Source: Luidia sarsii (Eukaryota > Echinodermata > Asteroidea > Paxillosida > Luidiidae). Taken from it: a DNA stretch of 64,000 nucleotides. Location: contig OX465105.1 in the NCBI GenBank assembly GCA_949987565.1, forward strand, positions 24,861,632 to 24,925,631, written 5' to 3'. The notes below the pieces were generated by a model. That model made no database searches, was not told the origin of the DNA, and was given only the letters and a program-made list of their open reading frames with translations. The stretch's first letter is position 1. Each line of letters opens with the position of its first letter. Below, in pieces: positions 19,864-61,200 of this stretch. The translations under genes and the position numbers were made by a program.

Positions 19864-19937
19864 TTAGCGGCAATCCCACACCTTGATGGAGAGATCCACA
19901 CTCCCACTGATGACCACGGGTAAAGTTTTGTGGAAAT
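19864..19937 (-). CDS. PAFAH1B1: LIS1 last coding exon (WD40 blade 7)
   Basis: Acceptor ttcgtcag/ATTTCC. Encodes (D)[18 protein letters not shown] and VWDCR with TAA at 19864-19866, matching vertebrate [20 protein letters not shown]. Confidence 0.95.
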
Positions 19938-22900
19938 CTGACGAAGGAAAGCAAGAACGGCAACAGATTACTATCATGGTCAAACAAATCCGGGAAAACA
20001 ATTATGAAAAATAGAGGAAAATGAAAAATTATGTAAATTAGAGTAAAATGAGAAAAAACTGAGTGCAAACCCCTCCTCGCAGGACCTTTCTCAAGAAAGG
20101 TTCTGCTGGGATCAAAACATCAGGCTCGCCTGATACGCAACTACCAGAGTCGACTACTCTACCAACAGGATGCCTTCGAGAAAGATCCCGCTCGGATCGC
20201 AATGGGACCACCGTGCCAGGGGACCTCTCGAGGGGACGCTTTCTCGCCGAGAAAGGAAAGGAGGAGACGGAAGCAGGCGGGAGATTCCAGCACACTCACC
20301 GAGCGAGGTGACAAAGTGACTGTGAGCGTTGAGCGTCTTCAGACAGCGCCTGTTCTTGTAGTCCCAGACCCTGATGGTCTTGTCGTCTGACGCGCTCAGG
20401 ATGTACTTGCCTCCGGGATGGAAGAGGACGCCTCGCACCCAGTTATCGTGACCGGTCTGTCAAAAGAAGACAGCAATCAACTCAACAATGAGGGCGGGTT
20501 TTGGGTTTGTTTTTTTCGCTCTTCCCAATTTGCAGTGACCAACATAGACATATATAACGTATAGGCGGTCAACGTCTATTAGAAATGACGTCAGGATACT
20601 GTAATGCTACATTAGACCTGACTTTTGTCAAAGTATGGGCGGAAGTAAAGAGCACTGCCACCATACACATATATAACCTATAGACGGTCAACGTCTATTA
20701 GAAATGACGTCAGGATACTGTAATGCCACCAGGGACCCGACTATGGGCAGAGGTAAAGACATGTGTATTCATTTGTCCTGTTGCGCATTCAATGCCCTGG
20801 ATTCTATGACAACACGGCGATGCTCACGACGCAGTTCTTCTATATACCTGCATGGGCTGTGCTCTATACTTCTGCCCATACTGGTTTTTTTTTTAACCCA
20901 CCCGTAAAGGTAGTCCTTACACCAAGGCCTTTGAGAGAGGTCCTGCTCAGAGGAAAACCCCAGGTTTATAATTTGGAAGTGAATGTCAAAAGGCTCGCTT
21001 ATTTATTGGGCTCCGGATTTCGATTTGGAAGTGAATGTCAACAAAACTGAGCCAAGGTGTTTTGCCAGAGTTTTCAACCCCCCCCCCACTCCAAAAAAAA
21101 AAAGTTTGGTCTTATTCCTAGCCCCGGGAATCTTGCCATCCCCTTTCTCACCAGTGTCATGATGCAGTAGTCCGCACTGACGTCCCAGATTTTGATGCTC
21201 TTGTCTCGCGAGCCAGATACCAGGAAGGGGCCCGACCTCTGGTTCTTCTTTGTCTGCCGAGGGGGGGGGGGGGGGGGAGAGGAGGAAGAGGGAGGAAAAC
21301 GAACCACACCAAACGCACAGAGGTTAACAATGATATTCATAACAGGATTTGTAGAGCCCCCATTTCATCAAGATGTCGCTAAGTCGGTAAGCAGTGGAAG
21401 ATAATCAGAAGCACGGACGTATCAAAGTGGCTTACCTCTGCACCGATAGCTTCGTTGATGGTGGGATGGGCGCACTCTGGTGCCCAGCTGATGCATTCCA
21501 CCACATGGTCGTGCTCCCTCAGCTCCAGTTTGCACTCCTTGGTGGCAACCACCCAGACGCGTACAGTCTGCCAAACGAAAAAAAAGGCACGAACAGCCGG
21601 GCCCAAAACAAAAGTCTCTTGGTAAGTCTCTTTCCGTGATCTTTCACCTCTGCGACCCGCGTTTGAAAACTTACATTAAAAAAAACCGCGCGAGTGGAAG
21701 ACTTTGGGTCGGTGGTGATTTGGGAAGGGGAGTTGGGTTGGGAGGGGAGGGAAGGCCTGGCATTACCTGGTCATTGGAAGCACTTGCTAGCAGGGACCCA
21801 TCGTAGTTCACTTTGACCATGCGCACCCATTCTCGATGGCCCTCGAATGTCTTTGTACAGTAACTGTGACGAACAGACAGACAGACAGAGAGAAAGAGAA
21901 AAAAAATGAACAAAAAATCATCAGATCAATGCACATAAAGACATTCAAGAGTGAAAACTCATTTCCCAATCTTGGTACAATAAATCAGTATTGAAAGATT
22001 TCTCAGAGGAAGATCAGCGTAAGTTTCCATTACAGAAGCCACCCCTCCCTGCGTAAGGGATTCTAGTCTACTATTTCTAATGGCTCGTATTTCAAAGTCT
22101 TAACCACTTGACCACCGAGCCGATCAAAGTCATGTGGCGGATTCAAATATATATAGCGGCGGTTACGGCATTGCATCATAGATGAGACGGACTCGAAAGC
22201 AGGAGTCGCAGGTTCGAATCCCGCCCAAACTGCATGTTGATTTTTTTTGTTCAACAGGCAAATGGGCAAAGCTCTGTGTGCAGTGCTTATTACATCGAAT
22301 GGCCCAAGCCTTCATTGAATTACATCTTATCATATCTACAAAGGAACTCCACAGTTTGCAATTTGCCCACATTCACAGTTTGGGCTTGTTGTTGGCGGTA
22401 TATCGTATTTTCTTAGGGTGGGGCCCCTGGTAACGGCCCATGCGAGGAGGCAGGACATCGGCTGAGGGAAGGGGGGAGGCGGGGACGACTCACCCAGTGG
22501 CCACCTCCCACATTTTGATGGTCTTGTCCCGCGAGCCGGACAGGACGTAGTCACCGGTGGGCGTGAAGCAGACGGAGGAGATGTTGTGGTCGTGGCCGTG
22601 CATGGTCTTGACGCACTCAAACACGGTGAAGTCCCAGAGTTTGACTGTCATGTCAGCCGAGCACGATGCTGTCAAACCGCAGCAGGAAATGAAACAGAAT
22701 ACATAATAACAAAAAATCATGAATAACAGAAAGGAGGAATGAGAACTCGAATGCATCAGCCGACTAAAGGAGCTTGAACTAAAGCAAGGGAAGGCACAAT
22801 CCAAGTGCCGGGCATACCTAGTAGTTTTCCTGTGTGGTCGAAGCATATATCCTGTACAATGTCCGTGTGACCTTTCAAGGTTCGCTCGAAATCTCCCGCT

Positions 22901-25900
22901 TCGTAGTCCCAAACCTGAGCAGAAAAAAAAAAAAAAAAAACCGAAAGGGAAAAACAAATTGAAAAGCATTCAACAATCTCAAAGCAGTTACTGTATTCAG
23001 ACTGGCGCCCCCACCCCGGCAAAGACTAGTTGACTATTTGGGAGGCCACCATCTAAGGGCTGGATAGCTCAGATGGAAGAGAACTGGTACGCTAATCCAG
23101 AGGTCTCTGGTTCAAGTCCCAGTCCAGTCAAAGTTTTCTTTGCCAATTTTTCAAATATCTGATGATTGTCATTCATTAAATTGATTAATTCTTTCAATTG
23201 TCATTACTTTATTTTCCCAGATAATAAAAACAAACCAAAATCCATCCAGACTCACGTAAAAAGTCCATAAAAATGCTATTTATCACATTCGCATTTGACT
23301 TCAGCAATTGACAGCGACGACATCCGGTCTTAGCAGCCCACAAACAACTCTGTCTAGTCAAGCGGGACCCGACTAGCACACGCCCCGAGTCCTTGGCTCA
23401 GTCGCGCGTGACGGGAGACAGGAAACCAGACCCATTGTGGCAAACATCTCACTGGCGTCCACGCATGAATGAACCAAATAACCTCAGTGCATGCACAAAG
23501 AATGCTTGAAATCATCACGAGGAAAAACATTACAACAGTCGTGTGGAAAAAAAAGCCACGACAAAAAGATACATGTAAATCGATGGGCATTTTGTTTTTG
23601 TTTGTTTTTAGAAACACCAAATGCCCAAATCTAAAAAAAATACGGGGGGGGGGGGCAATATTTTGATTCTGTCTTTGTCTTAGCAGGAATATTCTGACAC
23701 TTGTCGGTTTACCTTTTTCAAGTGGCTTTATTTGTTGTTGCAATGACGTCTTATCCTCGTCTTCATGACCTCAAACATTGCATGTGCACGCACTGTGCAC
23801 AGTGGTTTAAGACCCAGACATTTTTCCCAGGTTTTTAGCCCGTATTTTTGGTCATGCTTTCTTCTGACATTGTTGGACATCTGATCAAAAGTGAAAAAAA
23901 TCCATTTTGATGCCTAAATCACTTTGAAATTGTCATGTTATCATCGAGACCCTTATTTTGTTAGTTAAAATCTTACTTCGGCTACAAAAAATGTTAGGTG
24001 TTGCAATGTCCCCCCCAAATTTTTTTCAATTCTAATAAACCATTTTTCTCATTTAGACATTGTTACTTTTTCACTTTATGTATAATTTAGTTTGCAGAGT
24101 ATCGCCAAAGATTTGTGAAATACGCGTAAATTTAATGAGTTTATGGCGAGTTTTAAGGGAAAATGGGAAAAAACAATACGTTGCGTATTTTCTCAATCGG
24201 CCACTAACGGCCAAGGTATTTTGTATATTTTTCCTTATAAAATGATAAAGCAACTACTTGGGAATGAAACTAAAATAGCGCAAAAATCCCGCAAAGTCAT
24301 CTTCGTTCTAAAAATCGGTCATTTTGCACCGACCTCACGACCAGAAAACGTGCTTCGCTGCGAGAAAAAGGGCGCCCTCTATTGACGAAATCCTTCCTTT
24401 CGTACATGTATAAACAACGTGCGTAGCACAAGACAGTCGCGAAGTGTATTCAAATTGCTGCATTGAAGACGTTAAACTTAAAGTTTCGAGAAAAGCAAAG
24501 TCCAGGTGAGTTTTAGATCAATAGATGTCATGCTGTACTGATAATAGCTTATGGATTAACTGCAGAATACTGCACTTTATATTATTTATATATTTATATA
24601 CATCCCACTGTCTGTGAAACGTGTACAGTCAGTCAAGTCATTGTCTATTGTGTGCGAGTACAGTCAGTCAAGCACAACATCGTGTGGGAGAGGCGAGTGG
24701 CGGGGTATTCTGCAGTAGTGCCGTAGCTTAATTCTTTCCAAGAGGAATAGCTTAACTCAATAATACAACTTATAATTATTTGCATGGTTCGAGACATGTA
24801 GCACTGTGGGACAAGATTGTTTGTTTTTTTCATATCGCAAGGGGGGGGGGATGCATTATTAGTTTAATAACAAATACCTATCCAAGAGTAAAGCACGGCC
24901 ATCTCAAACCTTTCTTTTCACTTTTTCATTTACTATTTAGCCACAATGGCCCAAGCTGAAAACAAAGGTCCGTCAAAGCGTGAAGTCTTTGAGAAGTATC
25001 TTAAAGGAAAGCGAGGGCACCCTGCTAATACCGGCTTCACGAATGTTGCCAGGGAAATCATAAGTGATTATAGCTTATCTGGGCCACAGTGTACCGAGGA
25101 GAAAATAACGCGTCGCATCAGAAAATTGGACATTGATGTGAAGAAAATGAAAAAATCACTAAAGCGACCGTCAGGAAAAGCCAAATTTGATGAGCTCCTG
25201 GAAGAACCGTTTGTTGTCGTTGAAGAATATTCTACCGGGCTACCAGACACATCTTCACTGACTGTGTTGGATGCACTTAATGTTTCATCTGTAACAGTTG
25301 GCTCACAAGTTGATATTGAAGAACTTGAAACGGAGTGTGAACACACGACAGTTCCTCTTGATGAATTAGGCAGACGTCAGCAGTTCCGTCGAACAAATGC
25401 TCTGCTGGAAGAACTGCGACAAGAGGCTGACGACAACGGTGTTTCTCCAACACAACTCTTGGGTTTTCTTCTTCACAAAGAAAACTATGTGAGAAATCGT
25501 AAAATTGCAGATGTTGGAATGAAATTGTTTAATAACACACCGGTTGTTAATGAGTTACCTGAAGACAAGGGACTTTACTTTCTATCAACATACAACCTGG
25601 GAAGAACCGCTTATACAAACATGAGGAGAGACCTGAAACAATATGTTACATTTCCTGCTCACTATAAATTAATGGGAAAAAAACGTGAAATAACACCGGA
25701 TCTGAATCGTTACAGCATGGGCGACTACGAAGGTGTAACAGCTTCCTTAAAACAATCGTGCAGTCTGCATATGCAACGATTCATTGAGGCTCATCAACCG
25801 ATAATTGAATCAGCAGGACACTACATAGTGAAATGTAAAGATGGCTTGGATGGCTCGGGTCGTCATGCCATTTATCACCAGACGGCTCAGACTCGGACAT

Positions 25901-28900
25901 ACAGCATGCTTCTCTACATGTGGATACCGCTTGAGATCTACAGAGAAGATGGGTCCTCTGCATCAAGCTCATCAATGGCGTCGGGTAGGCCTATTGATAT
26001 ATTCCAAAATCAGTCATGGATATTAAAAAGAGGTTAACTTTTAACGACCACGATTACTATTGATCATCACAGCGAAGTTATATATAGATTTTAGGTTTGT
26101 CATCCTAAATGTTTAATACAATTTGTAATTCTTTATATTTTTGTTTATTTGGGTCAATAGTTTGGAAAGAAGGAACACCAAACAGTCCTGAAGCTGCTAT
26201 CCCCCTGCTCCTTTTGAAAGGCAAGGAGGATAGAGAACTTCTAGAATCAATCATTCCGGGGATTGAGGAGGAAAAGGCAGCTTTGTCTAATGATGGTATC
26301 CATGTAGATGTCTGTGAGAAACGGGCCCATTTCAAATTTGACTTTAATCTTACTATGGTGGATGGGAAAATGATTAAACTGCTGACAGGGAGAGGAGGAG
26401 CCTTCTGTGTTCTTTGTCCTGCAAGTCGAGAAGAATGCCACAACTTGCAAAAAATTCATGAAGGATTTCCAATCGGGGAGGTTACCAACGAGAATCTCAG
26501 GAACCTCTTCCAAGACCTACAACAAGAAGGGCAAATCAAGACCAAACCTGGGGACTATAGTAAACGTCTAGGACTCACACAAAAGCCCATAACCACCAGT
26601 GACATCAAGGTTTTTCCAGTTTTACATGCCACTCTCAGAACAATGGACTGGATTCTGAAGACAATCTACCATCTGGCAGCTGGAGTTAGAACTAAGCTTG
26701 GGCGGTTCTCCCGGTTCCAAGTGGAACCGCGGTTCCAAAATGGGAACCGGAACCGTGGTTCCGCTTTTTTTTGGAACCGGGTACCCGCTTTGGACGGTTC
26801 CCGCTTCAGAGGAACCGGTTCCAAACTCTGTGGCCAGCGCGGCCCAGCGCACATTTAGCGAACACGCAGTCACGCAATGGCCTGGCCCCAACCATGGATA
26901 ACTTATGCAATGTTGGTTTGTACATGCACAGTGCAATGGGTGCATGACACATGTACATGTACAATTTACTTTGTATGCCTGTAAATTCACAACAATCGAA
27001 CGCAGGCTGCTACTGTGGTACTGCACGTGGCAGCAATAAGCAACGCATTGAATGACCCCATTCGATCGTGGATAATTCTGTACGCATACATTGTACTACA
27101 GCCTACACGCACTGTACTTGTGTTGCCGTGTGGTGCAAGTCTGAGTAGGGCTCCCAAGCATGTGTGATTTCATCAGTATCTCATCGGCTACCAATGCCCA
27201 ATCACGCGATTCTTTTACAGGCCACATGGTTGTGACGGGTTCACTTGGCTCCCTAGGCAGAGATATATTTATCTCGTCTTGTTACTTGTGTTCTTACATT
27301 GTTCTGCACGTACATACGGCCGGACTCGCGCGGCTCCAGCGTAGGACTCGGCTATTGCACGATTGCATTGGACTCGGACCCGGTTCCTTCGCGGGGGGGA
27401 GGTACCAGATTTGGAACCGGGTATTTGGCTCGGGAAGTGTCCCAGCTTTGGAACCGGGTATTTGGCTCGGGAAGTGTCCCAGCTTTGGAACCGGGTATTT
27501 GGCTCGGGAAGTGTCCCAGGTTTGGAACCGGGTATTTGGCTCGGGAAGTGTCCCAGCTTTGGAACCGGGTATTTGGCTCGGGAGGTGTCCCAGCTTTGGA
27601 ACCGGGTATTTGGCTCGGGAGGTGTCCCAGGAATGGAGTTTTGGTACGGCGTGGCGTGGGGTGGGGTTCGTGTATTGCTATGGCAGCGGATTCGGTACAG
27701 CGTTGTGTGGGGTGGGGTTCGTGTATGGCTATGGCAGCGGATTCGGTACGGCGTTGTGTGGGGTGGGGTTCGTGTATTGCATGGGAGCGGATTCGGTACA
27801 GCGTTGTGTGGGGTGGGGTTCGTGTATTGCATGGGAGCGGATTCGGTACGACGTTGTGTGGGGTGGGGTTCGTGTATTGCATGGGAGCGGACTCGGTACG
27901 GCGTGGGGTGGGTTGGGGTTCGTGTATTGCATGCATGGCAGCGGATTCGGTACAGCGTTGTGTGGGGTGGGTTCGTGTATTGCTATGGCAGAGGATTCGG
28001 TACGGCGCGCCGCGTTGTGTGGGGTGGGGTTCGTGTGTTGCATGGGAGCGGATTCGGTACAGCGTTGTGTGGGGTGGGGTTCGTGTATTGCACGGGATTC
28101 GGGACAGTGTTGGGTTCGAGTTTTGCGTGGGATTCGGGACCACGTGCATCTCGGGGTATTGCGTGGGATTCGGGACCACGTGCGTCTCGGGGTATTGTAT
28201 GGGATTCGGGACCACGTGCGTCTCGGGGTATTGCGTGGGATTCGGGACCACGTGCGTCTCGGGGTATTGCGTGGGATTCGGGACCACGTGCGTCTCGGGG
28301 TATTGCGTGGGATTCGGGACCACGTGCGTCTCGGGGTATTGTATGGGATTCGGGACGGCGTGGGGCTATGATGTTGCACGGGATTCGGGACGGCGTGGGG
28401 CTATGGTGTTGCACGGGATTCGGGACGGCGTGGGGCTATGGTGTTGCACGGGATTCTGGACCGCGTGGGGCTATGGTCTTGCACGGGATTCGGGACCGCG
28501 TGGGGCTCGGGATCGCGTACGTGGGGCCCCGGTGTTGCTCGGGATTCTGGACTGCGTGGGGCTCGGGTATTGCTCAGGATTCGGGACCGCGCGGGGCTCG
28601 GGTATTGCTCGGGATATGGGACAGTGTTGGGTCCGAGTTTTGCGTGGGATTTGGGACCGACACGGCTATTTGCGCTAGCTGTCGGCTCCAGCGATTGCTG
28701 GTGTTTGAATCGGGGACTGCAGGCGTTGGAATCGAGGACTCGGGAAGTAGCCACGTGGTACATTTTGTCTGTAGCGTACCTGCCGAAGTTATCCATGTTA
28801 CTGTACCTGGCCAACCATGCTGGCGCGCGTCCAATAAACAACCAAAAGGTAATGGCTTGACCCTTCCACTTTCTACGGGTGAATTTACTCAAAGGGTTTT

Positions 28901-31900
28901 ATTCCCTGTTCTTAATATGCCATGCAGAATTGCTTTTGAATAGAGGATCGTAAAATCTAAACATGTTTTCAAATCTAAATCTATATCAATCTACGGTTTA
29001 TTCATCGGTCTACAGAAATTATTTTTTCCATCGAAATGAAATCAAATCACCCCTTTTTTAAGAATGGGAAGACCCGAGTTTGGGTTTGGATGATTCCATT
29101 CGTTTAACGGTTTCGTTATTGAACCGCGTTGTATTTTCCGTTAAAAATATTGGGCAAATGAGCAGCCAAACAATTCAAGCAAATCTTTTAAACATGTCTC
29201 ATACATCCTATTGATACATGAATGACAATCAGACTGCCAAACCAGCATTCGGTATACTTTATCAATGCATTGAAGCAAAATTAAGTCGCCATAAAAGACG
29301 CGCATGTAGTTGAACCTTCCAAGCTCATGGCGGTGTCCGCGAAACCGCGCTCACTGAGGTCTTTTTGTTTTTTATTAAATCTTATGTTTTTCTTTGTTTT
29401 TTAGGAACCGGTTCTATCTCGGAACCGCGGTTCCTAACTGGAACCGGAACCGGTTCCCAAAATCCTGGAACCGCCCAAGCCTAGTTAGAACGTGGAGAGA
29501 AAACTTTCTAAATGAGGAAAAAATTAAAAAAGCCAAAGACAAAGTGAAATCCCACATCTATGGGAAGACTGGCATCAGAGTTGATGAGCCTGACCCAGTT
29601 GGTAAAGGAGGCACTTCTACAACCGGGCCCATATCCCGACGATTAATTCATGAAAGAACTAATCGGCAAGCTCTGATAGACTGTATTCCTGAGAAAGGGG
29701 ACGACCGCAAGCAGCTTGCACAAGTAATTCAGAATATGTCTGTCATCCTGCGTCTCGTATCATGCACGGAACAAATCAACCCCACGAAACTCGATGTGTT
29801 GTGCAAAGACACCAGCCGCGTTTTCCTGGATCAATTTCCAAACTTCAGATTTTCCTGTTCAGTGCACCAGGTTCTTGCTCACAGCGCAGAATTAATTGAT
29901 GCCAATAAGGGCCATGGGTTGGGAACCCTATCAGAGGAAGCACTGGAAAACAACAACAAGAACATTCGTCGCTACCGTGAGCAGCTCTCAAGAAAAACTA
30001 GTCAGGAGGACAATCTGGTTGATGTATTCCATCGTCTTTGGGTGAAGTCGGATCCCGTAGTACGTTCATTTCGACATACTGCAAAGTGCACATATTGTGA
30101 TGGCGATCACAACGTTCGCTCTTGCCCGAAGAGAAAAACGGATTTCACAATGACCACCGAAGATGAGTTGTATAACTCTTTCCTTCAGTAGGCCCAGAGG
30201 AGGTAAGTAGCAAAGCATTTAAAACTAAATATTTGAAATTTAATGGCATTTTTGTTTGAAAAGAACAATGATAGTCATACATGGACGAACCTCTATAGAT
30301 ACGCGACACACCGTTATTTTTCGAAAATAGGGAAATAAATTTACAAATCCATTCTAAATAGTTATATATATTTTCTAAAGTCATCAGGATTTTCAAAAAG
30401 CCACATGGCTGCATTTGGATTCGCAAAATGCTAAATGACCGTTCCCGAGTATCAACGCGAATTATTCGGCAGTAAAACTGCGGAAGGCGTGTCAATAGAG
30501 GGCGCTAGTCGTGTCATAGATTTTGAAAATACGCGCTCCGACTGGCAAGAGCCACGTAATTTGCACGTACGGACGAATTGTGAGCTATTTTGTGGTCGAC
30601 TGAACATATTCTAGCTTGTTTGTATTGGTATATTTCCGGTAAATACATGAACACTGGCAATGTCTGGGTCACATACAGTTTTAAACCACTGTGCTGTGGT
30701 TATAAGTCGCTGGTTCATTTTGGCGGCAGGGATCCTCATTTGCTCCCCCCCCCCACAAATCTACTCCGGGACAAAAAAGCAGCCACAGTCACGCTCACCC
30801 AGGGATGTAAGTGACTGACAAAGTCATTTCCTGAAAATCACTGAAGGCCAATAAATTGTGCGACTGCAGGTGAGCGCTTAAGCGACCGAGAGATGCGAAT
30901 GCGAGTGAGCGCTTACAAGACCGAGAGTTGAGACTGCGAGTAAGCGCTTACACGACCGAGAGATTCACGACAGGGGTGCAGACGCCCTTCAGTTCTTAGG
31001 GATTTAACCGATAAAAATGAGCAGTTTGAGATACCTGTTTGACAAAAATCCGGAAATTTCCGGAAGTGTGACCACCCTGCTCACCTTTATCGTAGCATCC
31101 TCAGAGGACGAGGCCATGATGCTGTAGACAGGGTGGAAGACGACCCTGGTGATGGTGGTCCGGTGGCCGGTCAGCGTGTAGCGCTCGGGCGGCCGGGGGA
31201 TCCACTCGGTGGGCGTACGCTTCTGGTTGGTGGGCCCGCCGCCCAGCGTGTACTCCTTCTCCGTCTCGTTCAGCTTGCACTCCAGGTCCATGACCTTCTT
31301 CTGTAGTCTGATGACTGACGTCCACTTCTTCTCCAGGAGGCCGTTGTATTTCCTCTCCACGTCGCCCGCCTGAGCCGAGAAAATAAGAGTGCGGCATGAA
31401 CACAGGGTAAAACAAACCAACTTTGCTGGAATATTGGACCGTTATAAGGGCCTGACATTTTGATCCTAGCAGGACCTTTCTCAATGGCAAGACAATTTGG
31501 GTGGGTTTTTTTTCTGACTCGGAGTGAATTACACTAATGCACCGTGAATCACCGCCAAAACAGAAATCTGTTGCAACTCTGTGAAATAATTCCCCCCCCC
31601 CCCCAAGATTTTTATGACCAGGACAAGCATCATCGTCAAACAAGAAATCCGGCGCAACTCTTCGATCAACTGTGTTCAACAACAAACAGTAAATGCAGGT
31701 CCCATCACGATAATCTGAAGAACAGGGCTTTTGAATGAAAAATGCCTTTTTTTTTTTTTTTTAGCTTGTCTTGCCAGAAGAGCTGAGAGCCACGGGTGTT
31801 GGGAAGATGGCCTTCCTGGCAATGAGTGCTGCTACAGTGCAGTCACCTACAGGGGACAGTGATCTCACCATGTCGGCTTCTTTCTTAAATTCCTGCAGCG

Positions 31901-32235
31901 CATTGTCGTAGCCGTTTGACTTCAGGTAGTCAGCGATGGCCTTATTCCTGTGATAAAAAAAAAAGAAAGTGGGAGGGAGGGAGAGAGTAAGAGAGAGAGA
32001 GAGAGTCAATCGATTTGTTCCAGAACTCAGAGTCCAATCAGAGGCGCACTCAACCAAGCGTAAGGGAAAATAAAACCTACAAAAACAAAACATAACGGCT
32101 AGGATGCCAACGGCAATGCTAATATCAAATTATAATGTCTGCTATTTGTTCCAGCAGAGAGATGGCCAAAGCTTTAACTATGAGGGTTTCCCTTCGATTC
32201 AATTTCATTTTTATTTCCGGTTATTCATAATTTCA

Positions 32236-52684: not shown

Positions 52685-53015
52685 ATGGCGCTGAATCGCT
52701 ACATGCACCCGCGCAACCGCTACCGCGACAACCGGCCCGACTTTGCCGCCCTGGCCGGGCGTTGCCCGGACTTCGCCGGCCACCTGGCCCTGACCTCGAC
52801 GGGGCGGCTGTCGCTGGACTTTCGCGACCCGGCCGCCCTGCGCGCCCTGACCCGCGCCCTGCTGCGGGAGGACTTTGGGCTGGACGTGGAGCTCCCCCTG
52901 GACCGACTGATCCCCACCGTGCCGCTGCGACTCAACTACGTCCTCTGGGTCGAGGACCTCCTGTCGCCCAGCGGCGGTCCGAGCCGATGGACGGACGTCC
53001 ACGGTATCGACATCG
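52685..53015 (+). CDS. METTL16: METTL16 exon 1
   Basis: ATG in context gcgccATGg; donor CATCG/gtaaga. Contains LREDFGLDVELPLDRLIPTV and PLRLNYVLWVEDLL, close to human. Confidence 0.97.
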
Positions 53016-56000
53016 GTAAGATCCCCGATCCCAGATCCCCGGCCGGTCAAGGAGGAAGGGGGGGGGAGGTTTGGGGGTTGAAAATATCCCACCAGCCCTT
53101 TGGACCGAGTCTAGTGACTTGACTTTACCTGTCGGTCTAGATTGTGCTGAATTTTTATCATGACATTGATTAAGAAGCTTGCCATAGGGTAATATTAAAC
53201 AAAGATGTTGCAAACTGCTTACTGAGATACTGACGGTTGGATCCTAGCTGGGCCTTTCTCGGAGGCAGAATGCGGGAGAGAGGGGAGGGAGAGGGAGGGA
53301 GGGGAGAGAAGGGGAGAGGGAGAGAGAAAGAGAGTGGGAGGGAGAGAGAAAGAGGGAGGGAGGGAGAAGTAGAGAAGTGGAGAGAGAGAAGTGGAGAGAG
53401 AGGGGGAGAGAGAGGGAGGGAGAGGTGGGGCAGAAAGAGGGAGGGAGGGAGAGAGAGGGGGAGGGAGGGAGAGAGAAAGAGAGTGGGAGGGAGAGAGAAA
53501 GAGGGAGGGAGAGAGAAGTGGAGAAGTGGAGAGAGAGGGGTGGAGAGAGAGAGGGGGAGAGAGAGGGAGGGAGAGGTGGGGCAGAAAGAGGGAGGGAGGG
53601 AGAGAGAGGGGGAGGCAGGGAGAGAGAAAGAGAGTGGGAGGGAGAGAGAAAGAGGGAGGGAGGGAGAAGTAGAGAAGTGGAGAGAGAGGGGTGGAGAGAG
53701 AGAGAGAGGGGGAGAGAGAGGGAGGGAGAGGTGGGGCAGAAAGAGGGAGGGAGGGAGAGAGAGGGGTAGGGAGGGAGAGAGAAAGAGAGTGGGAGGGAGG
53801 GAGAAAGAGGGAGGGAGAGAGAAGTGGAGAGAGAGAGGGGGAGAGAGAAGTGGAGAGAGGGAGGGAGAGAGGTGGGCAGAAAGAGGGACGGAGGGAGAAA
53901 TATGGGGGGAGAGAGGGATGGATAGAGATTAGAGAGGGAGGGTGGAGGAAAAGGGAGGGAGAGAGAGAGGGAGGGGGAAAGAGAGGTCTGTGATCTGTGT
54001 GGTTACTGAAATTCATCCCGCTTTCAACCCATCGTTTGAAGACTCCCATGTTTGTTGGTTGGGGGGGGGGGGGGCTGCAGGTTGTGGAGCCTCCTGCATC
54101 TACCCTCTGCTAGGGGCCAAGCTGAACGGATGGAGCTTCACTGCCACCGAGGTGGATGCCTCGTCGGCCACCTATGCAAGCCTGAACGTGAAGCGCAACA
54201 ACTTACACGACAAGATCCAAGGTGAGTGTCTCGGGAGGACCTCGTCCTTCTCCTGTGTGTACTTCAAGTGATTTTGCCCGCCACTGTTGCCAACGCTCTT
54301 ACCATCTGCGCTTAGACTGCGGCCTTCACAAATATAGTCAACTAGTCTATGCCGGGGCCTCATTACCATTCCCTCAGCTTTCTGAATTAATGTAGTTTGT
54401 TTTGTACATGTATGATCATTAAAGTGGTATTTTACTGTAAGGTTAGTGTACCAGTTGTGCAAGTTGTGCTAGGTTATTGTAAGGGGCTAGTTGATTTGGT
54501 TGCTTTTTTTTTTTATTGTTGTTGATTTTTGTGTGATTGCTCGCAAGGCCAGGAAGAATTTCAATGTATTTGATATACATATGATAATAAATTGTTCTAT
54601 TCTATTCTATTCTATTCTATTCTATTCTCAGTCAGAAACATTCTACCGTTAATTGTTGTACATATTGGACAAATTGGGGAAGAAAACTTTGACTGGATCG
54701 GGACTTGAAATGGAGACCTCTGGTTTTGCAGGTACCAGCACTCTTACCATCTCAGCTATCTAGCCCTTTAGATGGTGGCTTTCCAAATAGCCAGCTAGTC
54801 TTTGCCAGGGTGGGGGCGCCTGTCAGAAGCAATTCAACCATTAATCGTTGTACATATTGGAAAAATTGGGAAAGAAAACTTTGACTGGATCGGGACTTGA
54901 AATGGAGACCTCTGGTTCTGCACGTACCAGCACTCTTACCATCTCAGCTATCTAGCCCTTTAGATGGTAGCCTTCCCAAATAGTCAACTAGTCTTTGCTG
55001 GGGTGGGGGCGCCAGTCAGAAGCAATTCAACCACTAACTGCCGTATATCTCCAGGTATCACACCCTCCCCCTGCTTTCATTCAGATGCAAACGACCAATG
55101 GTTACACACCTGGCTACAGCAGCTAAGGTATAACACAAAAGTGGATGCAGCTTTTTAAATTCGCAGTGGCTGTTGTTACGGCAGTCGTCCGTGTGGTTCC
55201 CTGACTTCACAGTATTTGTCAGGATGTTTAACTCTTGGAACCAGACTATCAGCTAATAGACTGGTTCAACCAGCCTGCAATGCTGACAAAATACAATCAA
55301 GTCAGGGAACCACATGGACGACTGCCATAACAACAGCCACTGCGTTTCAAATTGTACACATTATAATTATGTCCTTTTCACGACTCAGCTTTTTTGAAGC
55401 CGTGAAGAATAGTACTATAAGGCATAAGCCTGTTTTATTTCATTTCAATTCAGTTCAGTTCAATCCAAATCAATCCAATTCAACCTGAATCAATCCAAAC
55501 ACCAGAGCAGCTCAGGCATTCTAGCTCACTCAGCACCTAGTGAGTTGGGATATATTTTATGTACGAAATGATGCTACGGTGTTATTGTTTCTCTAAAAAA
55601 TTTAGTGGGCCTGACGTTTCGATCCTAGCAGGACCTTTCTCAAAGGCAGAGTGACAAGGACAAAACAGATACATGCACACGAAGGAAGGGGGGAGAGAGT
55701 GAATAGGACACGGATGAGAAACAAAGGACAAAGAGTGAAGCTGGTAGGGAGAGATCAAAGGGAAGGGCAAGGAGTAGGGTAGGGATTAGTGACAAGAGGG
55801 GGAAAGATCAAAGAGAAGGGCAAGGAGTAGGGTAGGGATTAGTGACAAGAGGGGGAAAGATCAAAGAGAGAGGTGTGAAGGACTGAACACAAAAGAAGGA
55901 TTATCAGAAAGCTGTATGGTGTTAGTCATTACCCTCCTGGATGTTGAGACCATGTGGTTGAATAGTCCGAAGACGCTTCATCCACATTTTCTCACGGCTA

Positions 56001-58034
56001 AGACTGTCCGTCTTACTACGGCGTTATCGTTTCAATAGAAATGAAGGGGTGTTATTCTTTCTCCCCTCTACTCCCCTCACCCTTCCCCCCGACTCAGTCC
56101 TAGAAGCTTCTCCTGACGACATGCTGTGCGGAGCCCTACGCCAAGCCCCCAGGCCCCTCTACCACTTTGCCATGTGCAACCCACCCTTCTTCGGCAACCT
56201 CCTGGAGGCACAGGGCATCATGGCCTCGCGCAGCCTGGACCGGCCCCAGCCCGGCTCGGTCAGCACGGCCGCCGAGTCGGAGATGGTCTGGGAGGAGGGC
56301 GGCGAGGTGGCCTTCGTCCGCCGGCTGATCGCCGACAGCCTCCGGCTGGGGCAGCGAGTCATGTGAGTCGTAGTTTTTTCAGCATGGTTCCCGCCTCAGC
56401 GGCCTCACGCATGTGGTTTTAATCCTGGCCGAATGGGAGGGAACCAGTCTACAAGATGCACGTGTTGTGATACAGCACTCTCGCTGTAGATTTCACAAGT
56501 GATCGTTTTCGTTTCGGACGCCATGATTCTAATGATCGCAGAATGTTAAAACAATGCTGCTTTATTGTTTTGGTCGTCAAAGATACCCAGGAAAACCTCA
56601 AGTAAAGGGGTTTTTTTAATCGATGTTGCTTGTTGCCGATTTTATAATCGATGTTGCTTGTTGCCGATTTTATTATCAATGTCGCTTGTTGCCGATTCCG
56701 ATTTTATTATCGATGTTGCCGATTTTATTATCGAGGTTTGCTGATATAATTATCGATGTAGAAACTGAACGCATGCCTGGCGCGGCCCTCCGATACTGCA
56801 ATAGTGACCAGCCCTCAAATACGCAATGTACTTCTGGGTTCTTAATTTCTTATGTTTTACATTGAATGGCGGGTATCCGGGTACCGACGATTTCAAAATT
56901 TGGGTATCCGGTTCCTCAAATACCCGATTTTGCCCAGCCTTAACTGGGAGGCAGCCCACCTCACTGCTTTGATGGGTCAATTTCTTGAAAACGTATCGTA
57001 ATGCATTCTCAAAGTCTTACCATGCATCGTAACTCCACTTCTGCCGGATCACCCGTCGTTGTAAGTTGTAAGACACTGCATGGTTTCTGTGTATCGCTTA
57101 CGATTGTTAGCATACCAATGGGTTTGGTGAAATCGTCTGCTGATTTGAAATTACTCAGTGAATTTCTGAATGATTTTTTTGGGGGGGGAATATGACCTGA
57201 CTGTATGCTTCTAGGATGTTATCATAAGGATTAGACTCCTAAGGTCATGTCCAGAATGGATTGAATTATTTTTTTAGGGAATATGACCTGACTGTATGCT
57301 TCTAGGATGTTATCATAAGGATTAGACTCCTAAGGTCATGTCCAGAATGGATTGAATGATTTTTTTAGGGAATATGACCTGACTATGCTTCTAGGATGTT
57401 ATCATAAGGATTAGACTCCTAAGGTCATGTCCAGAATGGATTGAATGATTTTTTTAGGGAATATGACCTGACTGTATGCTTCTAGGATGTTATCATAAGG
57501 ATTAGACTCCTAAGGTCATGTCCAGAATGGATTGAATGATTTTTTTAGGGAATATGACCTGACTGTATGCTTCTAGGATGTTATCATAAGGATTAGACTC
57601 CTAAGGTCATGTCCAGAATGGATTGAATGATTTTTTTTAGGGAATATGACCTGACTGTATGCTTCTAGGATGTTATCATAAGGATTAGACTCCTAAGGTC
57701 ATGTCCAGAATGGATGTTTTTATTTGGGGCTGCACTTTGGCGTACTAGTCAACTTCAAGTACGTCAAGTGAATTTGCCAAATGCCCTTGGCCAAGATCTA
57801 GAAAATTATCATTTTTTTTGGTTAAAGAACACAGCCTGACTCTACTTTTGTTACTTTCCTTTGTCCGTAGTTGGTACACGTCCATGATTGGGAAGAAATC
57901 AAGTCTAGCGCCCATCAAACAAGAGCTGGCCAAGCACAAGGTAGGCATCATAAAGTCGCACAACGACAGTTTTTTCCAAAACCATGTCGCACCTGTTCAT
58001 GTTGAGGTGCTGTAATAAAGGCATGTATGCTTGC

Positions 58035-58133
<99 letters not shown>

Positions 58134-58173
58134 AGCGATCGATCGATCGTTTGATCGATCGATCAATTAATCG

Positions 58174-58212
<39 letters not shown>

Positions 58213-61200
58213 GACATAGGCATTTGCCCGCGGTCTCCTCAAATTATCCACCGCTTGAATCACTGGCATCACTCCTACCACTGCCCGCCTTTCCAGTGCC
58301 GCTTCTTTACAGTTCGTTGGTATCACACTCTGACCATTCTCGGATGTTGTCCACCCAACACATCTTTGGTCTGGCCCACAGAACGACGACATCCCTCTGG
58401 CATCCCATCCACAACAGCAGCTGCCAGACTGCCTTGCTAAACCACTACGGCCCAACCAAGCTGCCTTGCACAAGAATGGACTCCACTGATGGCTTTGTCA
58501 TTGTGGGATGGGAATAGTTGAACTTCAGTTTCAGGCTCATCGTTCTTGGCTATTTTTTTCTGTTTCAGATCCAGAATGTGACGACGACCGAGTTCTGCCA
58601 GGGACGCACAATGCGCTGGGGCATCGGCTGGACATTCTACCAGGACATCGACTCCCCGGTAAGCAAATCGCAAGAGCGAGTCAAACCTGGAACAATCGGT
58701 CGCCTGTGTGGTTCTTTGTTATGCTACATATAGTTTTGTGGTTGGCTGAAGAAAAACATCTTTTGTTTAGAAACTTAGAGGGCCCACTGCATAGCAACAC
58801 CACCAGCACTCCGAATTTGGAAGTCCAGGGCTGGATTTCACAAAGCCCTACGATGCATCTTAATTCAACTTACGATGGATAACCCATCGTAAGTTGTGAT
58901 ACACCGTATGGTTTCTGTGCATGGCTCATTGTCTTGCGATTGATCGTAAGTTACGATGAGTTTGGTGAAATCGACATCTGGCTTGTTAAGTGGTTTAGAG
59001 CCAAGAGAATTGAACCAAACTTGGATTTGAACATCAGTGGAGCTGTCCAGCCCTCAAGAGGGCAGCCTTCGCTAATAGTCAACCGTCTTTGCTGCCACTG
59101 TGCTGCCAGTCAGAAGGATCATTTCATTGGTCTCACTCGGGGGCGAGTCTTTCCCAGTGGTGCTGCAGTTTCCCTAAAACACTGCCACTTCCTCTTCAAG
59201 AGGTACAATAGTTTTGTGTGTGCCCAGTCTAGGAATCTCACCGGTTCCTCTCGACCCATTTTCAACCCCTTCCCAGGTGTCCCCGTCGGCCAAGCGCTTC
59301 AAGCGGGGTAAAGAGCGCCCTCCGCTGGTCATTCGGGTCCCGACGAGAGCGCTGGAGGCGGTGCTCCGCGGGGCCAGCCCCGGGGGGAGTGGGGACCAGC
59401 CAAAGGTCAAGGCCATCGCCAAGGTCCTGGAAGGGCTGCTGAAGTCACTGGAGGTATGCTGAGACATGCATTTTTCAGTCCCGTGACTCGGACTCGAAAC
59501 CTGCTGGACCCGACTTGGATTCGACTCGTGCTTGTTTCTCTACACTCTAAGATAGACAGCGATCAATGGCTAAAGCCGTGTCCGCACTGGACTTGTTTTT
59601 TACCGAGCCCGTGGGTAACATTCCAATGGGTAAATCTTCACGGCGTCCGCACTTGGACTATTCGACTCGGGTAAACTAACCAAGACGATCGGTAAAACTA
59701 ACCAACTGGCGCAAACAAACGCATGAGGGCACTTTTGTGGTGACCTTTCACCGGATGTCTGTACACAATCTACTGGCCATGTGTACATAATTGTAGTCAC
59801 GTTGCTACCCCACGTCCGCACGAGTCTTCCACAGGGACGTACACGTCACGTGGTATCGAGGCAATGCGGGGCGCCGGCGTCAGACCGGATGTGTTTTTTT
59901 ACCGAGTCGTTTACCGAGACGTCGTGTCCGGATTGGACTTTTCGGCTCGGTTAAACTGACCTGGTCGATTTAACCGGGCAGAAGTTGGTCGGTTAAACTA
60001 CCCATTCCAGTCGGGTAAGTAACCTGGGAGGAAAACTTCCTGGGCTGTCCGCATTGGACTTAAAATGGTCAATTTACCCATTTGCTCGGTTAGTTTACCC
60101 ATTTTAAGTCCAGTGCGGACGTGGCTTTAGTGGAATTTACAGACGTTGTTGGCTCGTTGGGAATGATTTTGATCTAAGTTTACCTGACTAAATATTTGAT
60201 ATACTGGGCGAGTGGGCCCAACTCAACTTCCGGAAATGCATTTTTAGTACAGCATCATATTTAAAGGTGACTTCTGATATGCACTCGGCCCTCGTGACTC
60301 TAGACTCTACTGACCTATACAGTTTGTCTGGAGATACTCGGGTGCTATCTGCAAAAATGTGGAAAGGCCGTCTGCTGTGCCCACTGTCCGTATTTTTTCA
60401 ATCGGTTACTGAACACAGCAATTGATTACACATGGAGTGGGGCAAATCCTTGTCAAAGCTGTCTGCTGCTATTAAAAAAGAAAAAAAAAAAAAAAGACAA
60501 CTGTGGCACTACTGTTTCTCTCGCTCCTCTTGCCCGTAGATCAAGATCAAGCCCAAGCCGGGATCCAAGCAGAGTGCCAGGTACGACTTGGAGGCCGCCA
60601 GGAACACCTGGGCCAACCAGCGCCGCAAGAGACGCCAGTCGCTGAGACGCCGGCGAGAGACGGAGGAGGAGGAGGAGGAGGGCCCGGGCAGAGAAGCCAA
60701 GGAGGCCAGGCCGGACATGAGCTCTGCTCCCACGGACGCTGTCGGACATTCCCCGTCCGCCGGAGTGCGTCGGCCAACATCGGACACCAACGGGACGGAT
60801 TGCACGGTGACCGAGTCGGCCCGTTGTGCTGCCAAGGGGCTCGCTGCCCAGAAGGCGGCCGATGACAGCGTGCCCACAGCCGAGGAAGATGTTACGGCAC
60901 ATCGCGTAACGGCAGTCGTAGCTGAGGAAAATGCAGCACCTGCCGACCATAATCAGACTGTCAAGGGTACCCCGCGGACCACAGAGCGTGCCTGCACGGA
61001 CAGCGGTAGAAGAGAGCTGCCCTCATCCGACACAATCACATCGGACGATGACGCAAAGGAGCCACCGGAGACGGGCTTGGCGCGAGATATTGATCGGACG
61101 GAGAGATCGCGTCGAACAGACGGCGCTTCTTCGGACGAGGCCCGGCAGCCTCCGGAGGGCGGCAGAGGCGACGAGGGGCTCCTCTTCGAGTGTACGCTGA

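Follow-up and report, generated by a model that had tools for sequence, protein, structure and literature searches.

An element at positions 23798-30693 of the analyzed window, a 64,000-nucleotide stretch of the sea star Luidia sarsii (GenBank assembly GCA_949987565.1, contig OX465105.1, positions 24,861,632 to 24,925,631 of the forward strand), is very probably (roughly 0.9) a real single-gene DNA transposon of the Transib superfamily, inserted by cut-and-paste into an intron of LIS1, now non-autonomous and bounded by unequal ends. RAG1, the enzyme that cuts vertebrate antibody genes, descends from the Transib family. What is new at this locus is an echinoderm Transib of which both ends, the target duplication and the coding sequence can be read together, and the combination added is a 10-bp asymmetry of the ends with a RAG1-sized zinc-region loop, in the absence of RAG2. 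As it stands, the element supports the published picture of Subgroup I Transibs and overturns nothing, making it useful but ordinary.

Termini and target site

The hallmarks of the Transib superfamily were found together: inverted CACAGTG-like termini, a 5-bp duplication, a RAG1-core-like DDE transposase with C2/H2 zinc ligands, and one gene with no RAG2-like gene in the ORFs scanned. The element spans 6896 bp, or 4097 bp once a nested insertion and one copy of that insertion's duplication are subtracted, and it is young-looking. It is flanked by two copies of the 5-bp target site duplication CTGTG (23793-23797 and 30694-30698). The 13-bp terminal inverted repeats CACAGTGGTTTAA at the 5' end (23798-23810, plus strand) and at the 3' end (30681-30693, minus strand) match each other exactly, and both carry the heptamer CACAGTG, which is the consensus heptamer of the recombination signal sequence (RSS) in the available text of PMC8289069. 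LIS1 exons were matched on the minus strand on either side of the element, at 22917-22819 and 31363-31082. The ends, duplication, RSS-consensus heptamer and antisense placement in a LIS1 intron had all been named in the original prediction, and all were recovered here.

The inequality of the two ends had not been remarked in that prediction. When the ends are aligned, the first 13 bp are common and are followed by the conserved block GACCCAGACATT, with base 14 as its first position at the 5' end and base 24 at the 3' end. The 12-bp block thus abuts the terminus at the 5' end (23811-23822, plus strand), while its counterpart (30659-30670, minus strand) lies 10 bp farther from the 3' end, behind an extra spacer AACTGTATGT that occurs at this end only (30671-30680, minus strand). 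The 13-bp and 12-bp elements are therefore contiguous at one end and 10 bp apart at the other, an offset close to one helical turn. An exact 12-mer common to both ends was reached in none of 5000 shuffles.

This layout is bipartite and unequal, and its offset is comparable to that of 12/23 recombination signals, where the difference is 11 bp. The ends are not themselves a 12/23 signal: their blocks stand nearer to the heptamer, and the inner one is no A-rich nonamer. Asymmetric terminal repeats are a criterion of Transib Subgroup I, all of whose members are asymmetric-ended according to Tao et al. 2022 (PMC9435367), and the 0/10-bp gap is such an asymmetry. Unequal ends with 12/23 spacing are also described for Drosophila and Anopheles Transibs in the accessible part of Yakovenko et al. 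2021 (PMC8355894).

Two further observations concern the element's own sequence and its target. The element contains a perfect 15-nt inverted repeat, GCGCCCTCTATTGAC, at 24372-24386 and 30491-30505; its two copies, roughly 575 bp from the 5' end and 190 bp from the 3' end, are a possible candidate for a subterminal site. When the empty site is rejoined (23791-23797 and 30699 onward) it reads CACTGTGGTTATAAGTC, which is similar to the element's own end CACAGTGGTTTAAGACC. The local score of this likeness, 26, was equalled in 45 of 2000 shuffles and in 116 of 6386 tile-strands of the window, the element's own ends included. Since the likeness was noticed post hoc, an insertion into an old Transib end is not claimed, and the likeness is at most suggestive of one.

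Transposase gene and the nested insertion

Three coding pieces on the plus strand, recognized from open reading frames (ORFs) and alignment, make up the transposase gene, and none contains a stop or a frameshift. Exon 1 runs from the ATG (24946-25984) and holds the N-terminal region, the motif KRGHP and D302; a putative intron of the 5' untranslated region with GT...AG borders (24506-24940, plus strand) lies just upstream. Exon 2 (26161-26692) carries D414, C429/C432 and a 70-aa loop before the LH motif, and exon 3 (29492-30191) carries H649/H654, E676 and a C-terminal zinc knuckle before the stop. A phase-1 GT-AG intron of 176 bp (25985-26160, plus strand) separates the first two exons. It is backed by the reading frames of related proteins: those of P0002 and P0003 enter the intron on its 3' side and that of P0011 on its 5' side, the intron-side residues of P0002 being identical to those of the window. 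The Patiria gene-model protein P0010 joins across the same position, so that the position of the intron is common to the window gene, P0002, P0003 and P0010.

Exons 2 and 3 are parted by a nested insertion of 2791 bp (26693-29483) with ends TAAGCTTGGGCGGTTC and inverted TAGGCTTGGGCGGTTC, flanked by two copies of the 8-bp target site duplication GTTAGAAC (26685-26692 and 29484-29491). It splits the gene between the second (D414) and third (E676) acidic residues. Elements of the hAT superfamily are recognized by short inverted ends and a target duplication of 8 bp. The insertion shows both, the GTTAGAAC duplication and ends of the form TAxGCTTGGGCGGTTC; it is therefore called hAT-like, and it is probably non-autonomous. 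No Pfam transposase was found in any of its 10 listed ORFs of at least 120 aa, as would be the case in a non-autonomous element. Minisatellites with periods of 35-50 fill much of its core, and arrays of periods 37, 50, 36 and 35 are located at 27405-28659.

The closest relative, P0002, comprises 427 residues translated from a 1839-bp public contig and differs from the window protein at one of 409 coding residues (R371G). Unlike the window copy it lacks the nested insertion: its frame continues across the insertion point, where the duplicated codons occur once. Uninterrupted copies or alleles thus exist, and the window copy is the interrupted one, since P0002 passes this point. The full 756-residue frame of the original prediction is recoverable only when the 176-bp intron is spliced and the 2791-bp insertion is skipped. 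An uninterrupted transposase gene, as expected of an intact autonomous transposon, is not present, owing to the insertion at 26693-29483. Because the gene is split by a later hAT-like insertion, the window copy is judged from its sequence to be non-autonomous and unable now to encode a transposase. The description of the element as structurally complete therefore holds for the ends and not for the gene.

The alternative under which the nested element is spliced as an intron, so that the window copy still yields an intact transposase, appears improbable. The frame does stay in register once the insert and one copy of its duplication are left out, and many introns reach a length of 2791 bp. Yet the flanks of the insert, an 8-bp duplication with TAAGCTT/TAGGCTT ends, are the signature of a DNA transposon rather than of an intron, the insert is missing from P0002, and the frame of exon 2 runs to a stop within it.

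Relationship to Transib, RAG1 and RAG1L proteins

Protein comparisons were made with a read-through protein, in which the three coding pieces are joined and the 176-bp intron and nested insertion skipped. A hidden Markov model search of the frame against RAG1 had been suggested as a check on the original prediction, and the read-through protein scored 36.4 bits against Pfam RAG1, above the cut-off of 25 (E 2.3e-9). Among solved structures, the best match was HzTransib of Helicoverpa zea (PDB 6pqn and others) with E 6.9e-21, followed by RAG1 (1.3e-8 to 1.5e-7) and amphioxus RAG1L (9.3e-8). A profile of six relatives gave the same leading match, with HzTransib at 4.9e-35, RAG1L at 2e-12 and RAG1 at 1.3e-10 or weaker. 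HzTransib is matched over residues 208-443 and 475-717 and has the same catalytic and zinc residues as the element.

Alignment to mouse RAG1 places the acidic triad at D302 (D600), D414 (D708) and E676 (E962), and the zinc ligands at C429/C432 (C727/C730) and H649/H654 (H937/H942). The predicted residues D414 and E676 and the zinc motifs CVLC and HQVLAH are thereby borne out. The proposal of D299 as the first catalytic aspartate is not, as RAG1 D600 aligns to D302 and position 299 is variable: it is Glu in P0004, P0005, P0006 and RAG1, Trp in HzTransib, and Asp in P0010, P0011 and BbRAG1L. The column of D302 holds Asp in all six other tree rows that have letters there, four of the ten other rows having none. 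A counterpart of D708 within the LH motif was also considered and ruled out, the alignment placing D708 at D414. At the position of RAG1 R848, Ser is found in the window protein, Thr in HzTransib and Met in RAG1L; selection of R848 was one step of RAG1 domestication according to Tao et al. 2022 (PMC9435367).

Eleven relatives were found, of which P0002 (the near-copy), P0006, P0008, P0011 and P0012 were left out of the tree. Relative P0010 is Patiria miniata LOC119742038 and shares 62% identity with the window protein over the matched part, while five others share 63-74%; over their matched parts, P0002, P0003 and P0007-P0010 are 62-100% identical to it. Within this last group, the proteins other than P0002, at 62-74% identity, therefore represent other families or other species. 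Relative P0005 is labelled Em0020g587a, which we take to be a protein of the freshwater sponge Ephydatia muelleri. Searches for relatives in a collection of prokaryote genomes gave 86 pattern stretches with none confirmed, a result with no bearing on rarity in animals. In viral contigs, none of 45 stretches was confirmed and the 25-bp 5' end had no match, which likewise has no bearing on animals.

The maximum-likelihood tree comprised 11 rows, with HzTransib as the sole outside Transib. It grouped the window protein, six relatives and HzTransib apart from RAG1 and RAG1L, an 8|3 split supported at 100/100; the branch parting HzTransib from the other seven Transib rows received 83/94. P0010 fills 41% of the tree columns. 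The label "RAG1-like (Transib-type)" given in the original prediction is probably best read as Transib rather than RAG1L, the element falling on the Transib side of the 100/100 branch, subject to a long-branch warning.

Several points count against this reading of the element. The tree program warned that the long branches of HzTransib and BbRAG1L may mislead. Taken singly, the coding pieces all remain under the Pfam RAG1 cut-off, with 18.9 for exon 2, 20.0 for exon 3 and no match for exon 1, and exon 1 alone found no relative among the solved structures. Exon 2 alone (26163-26690) matched RAG1 in 15 of 16 rows, the best with E 0.0014 and one row being unrelated, and HzTransib was absent from them. 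The near-copy P0002 may moreover come either from an allele of this locus or from a different copy. Exon 3 alone showed the reverse of the preference of exon 2, matching HzTransib with E 3.1e-16.

The preference of exon 2 is among the points in favor of a RAG1L (RAGL) transposon that has lost RAG2L. RAGL transposons occur in the bat star, as given in the available text of PMC4411706, the zinc-region loop of the element is RAG1-sized, and the UniRef name of P0010 is "V(D)J recombination-activating pr...". These are opposed by the lead of HzTransib over RAG1 and RAG1L, which amounts to at least 12 orders of magnitude whether the query is the read-through protein, P0004 or the six-relative profile. 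A RAGL transposase would be expected within the RAG1/RAG1L clade, and the 8|3 split at 100/100 keeps the element out of it, with the long-branch warning applying here too. Nor was the RAG2-like partner gene of RAGL transposons found: a scan for a RAG2-like Pfam domain, which covered the three coding pieces, all 10 insert ORFs of at least 120 aa and 10 of the 17 shorter ORFs of the non-coding ends and would miss very short exons, returned none. Within the scanned ORFs this agrees with the earlier statement that no RAG2-like partner is present, and a RAGL origin is very improbable. A domesticated host gene derived from Transib is hardly credible, as the lack of stops in the coding pieces is set against intact matching ends with a target duplication, a position inside another gene's intron, and an interrupted coding sequence of which a near-identical copy without the insertion exists.

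Within the Transib superfamily, the element resembles Subgroup I, which is marked by the alpha11-alpha12 region, the CTT1 tail and asymmetric ends, while Subgroup II lacks the alpha11-alpha12 region and CTT1 and may have either kind of end (Tao et al. 2022, PMC9435367). The loop from the second zinc Cys to the LH/TH motif measures 70 aa in the window protein, P0003, P0004 and P0005, compared with 31 aa in HzTransib, 65 in mouse and zebrafish RAG1 and 61 in BbRAG1L. A C-terminal knuckle of the form Cx2Cx3Hx4C was present in 7 of 12 rows (window, P0002, P0003, P0004 and P0007-P0009), the other five ending without it; the form Cx2Cx3GHx4C printed for RAG1L occurred in none of the 12 rows examined. 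On a comparison of loop, tail and ends with the published marks of Subgroup I, the element is called Subgroup I-like rather than a proven member.

Proposed transposition, known systems and surroundings

The element would have entered the LIS1 intron by cut-and-paste. By analogy with HzTransib and RAG1, a transposase dimer would bind the unequal ends and nick at the heptamer, hairpins would form on the flanking DNA, and the freed ends would be joined to the target with a 5-bp stagger. The conserved residues and the CTGTG duplication suggest that this element may be cut and joined in the same manner. Transib nicks and forms hairpins without RAG2, and RAG puts signal ends into 5-bp GC-rich targets, according to the accessible part of PMC11844651; 5-bp duplications are given for both Transib and RAG in the accessible part of PMC7204232. 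The bipartite layout, with 13-bp and 12-bp elements and a 0/10-bp gap, suggests that the dimer most likely pairs one short and one long end. The later hAT-like insertion has cut the gene between D414 and E676 and so ended enzyme coding by the window copy, whose intact ends could still be moved by an enzyme from an uninterrupted copy such as that of P0002.

It is possible, though rather unlikely, that a living sea-star Transib family pairs one short and one long end, which differ by one helical turn and carry an RSS-consensus heptamer, entirely without RAG2, and thus follows a natural 12/23-like rule that the transposase imposes by itself. If this were true, the family would be a model for the origin of the rule before RAG2. 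Should uninterrupted copies prove active, the family would make it possible to test directly whether the pairing of unequal ends is older than RAG2.

Among known systems, the element shares with Transib Subgroup I (PMC9435367) a single RAG1-like transposase, asymmetric bipartite ends and the 5-bp duplication, and may also share the long zinc-region loop and a C-terminal zinc knuckle. HzTransib, the best solved relative, differs in its loop of 31 aa against 70 aa and in its ends, which are symmetric in the available text of PMC8289069. The TransibSU and RAGL transposons of sea stars and sea urchins share the host group, 5-bp duplications and 13-bp ends with a RAG-like heptamer, but encode RAG1L and RAG2L, as far as the available text of PMC4411706 describes them, whereas the element has one gene, placed outside the RAG1/RAG1L branch. 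AanRAGL of Aureococcus (PMC9435367) also has bipartite ends, built there of 13-bp and 10-bp elements with an unequal spacing of 4/13 bp compared with 0/10 bp here, and differs in carrying RAG2L and in the sequences of its elements.

Both Transibs with asymmetric ends and sea-star RAG1L/RAG2L transposons have been published before, which weakens the value ascribed to the element as a reference for the transition to RAG1. Literature searches on Transib in sea stars and on asymmetric terminal inverted repeats in echinoderms showed no title on this element among those listed, which is no proof of its being unpublished, since repeat databases such as Repbase lay outside their scope.

Just beyond the 3' end, three tandem copies of a 35-bp unit occupy 30859-30964. 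The LIS1 query, ten translated stretches joined, had its best match in Asterias rubens (86%), followed among named rows by sea urchins and a sea cucumber (76-78%), with other rows of 76-77% interspersed, among the 120 of 1477 rows listed. These identities by themselves point to an echinoderm host, probably a sea star other than A. rubens, and rule out a lamprey, which repeats and base composition had brought into consideration. The LIS1-like gene extends over 19867-31946 on the minus strand, perhaps to 46993, where the first exon is a weak match (E 0.9). It neighbors a METTL16-like gene with exons at 52685-60659 on the plus strand, the last of them a weak match; LIS1 and METTL16 are presumably neighbors in human as well.

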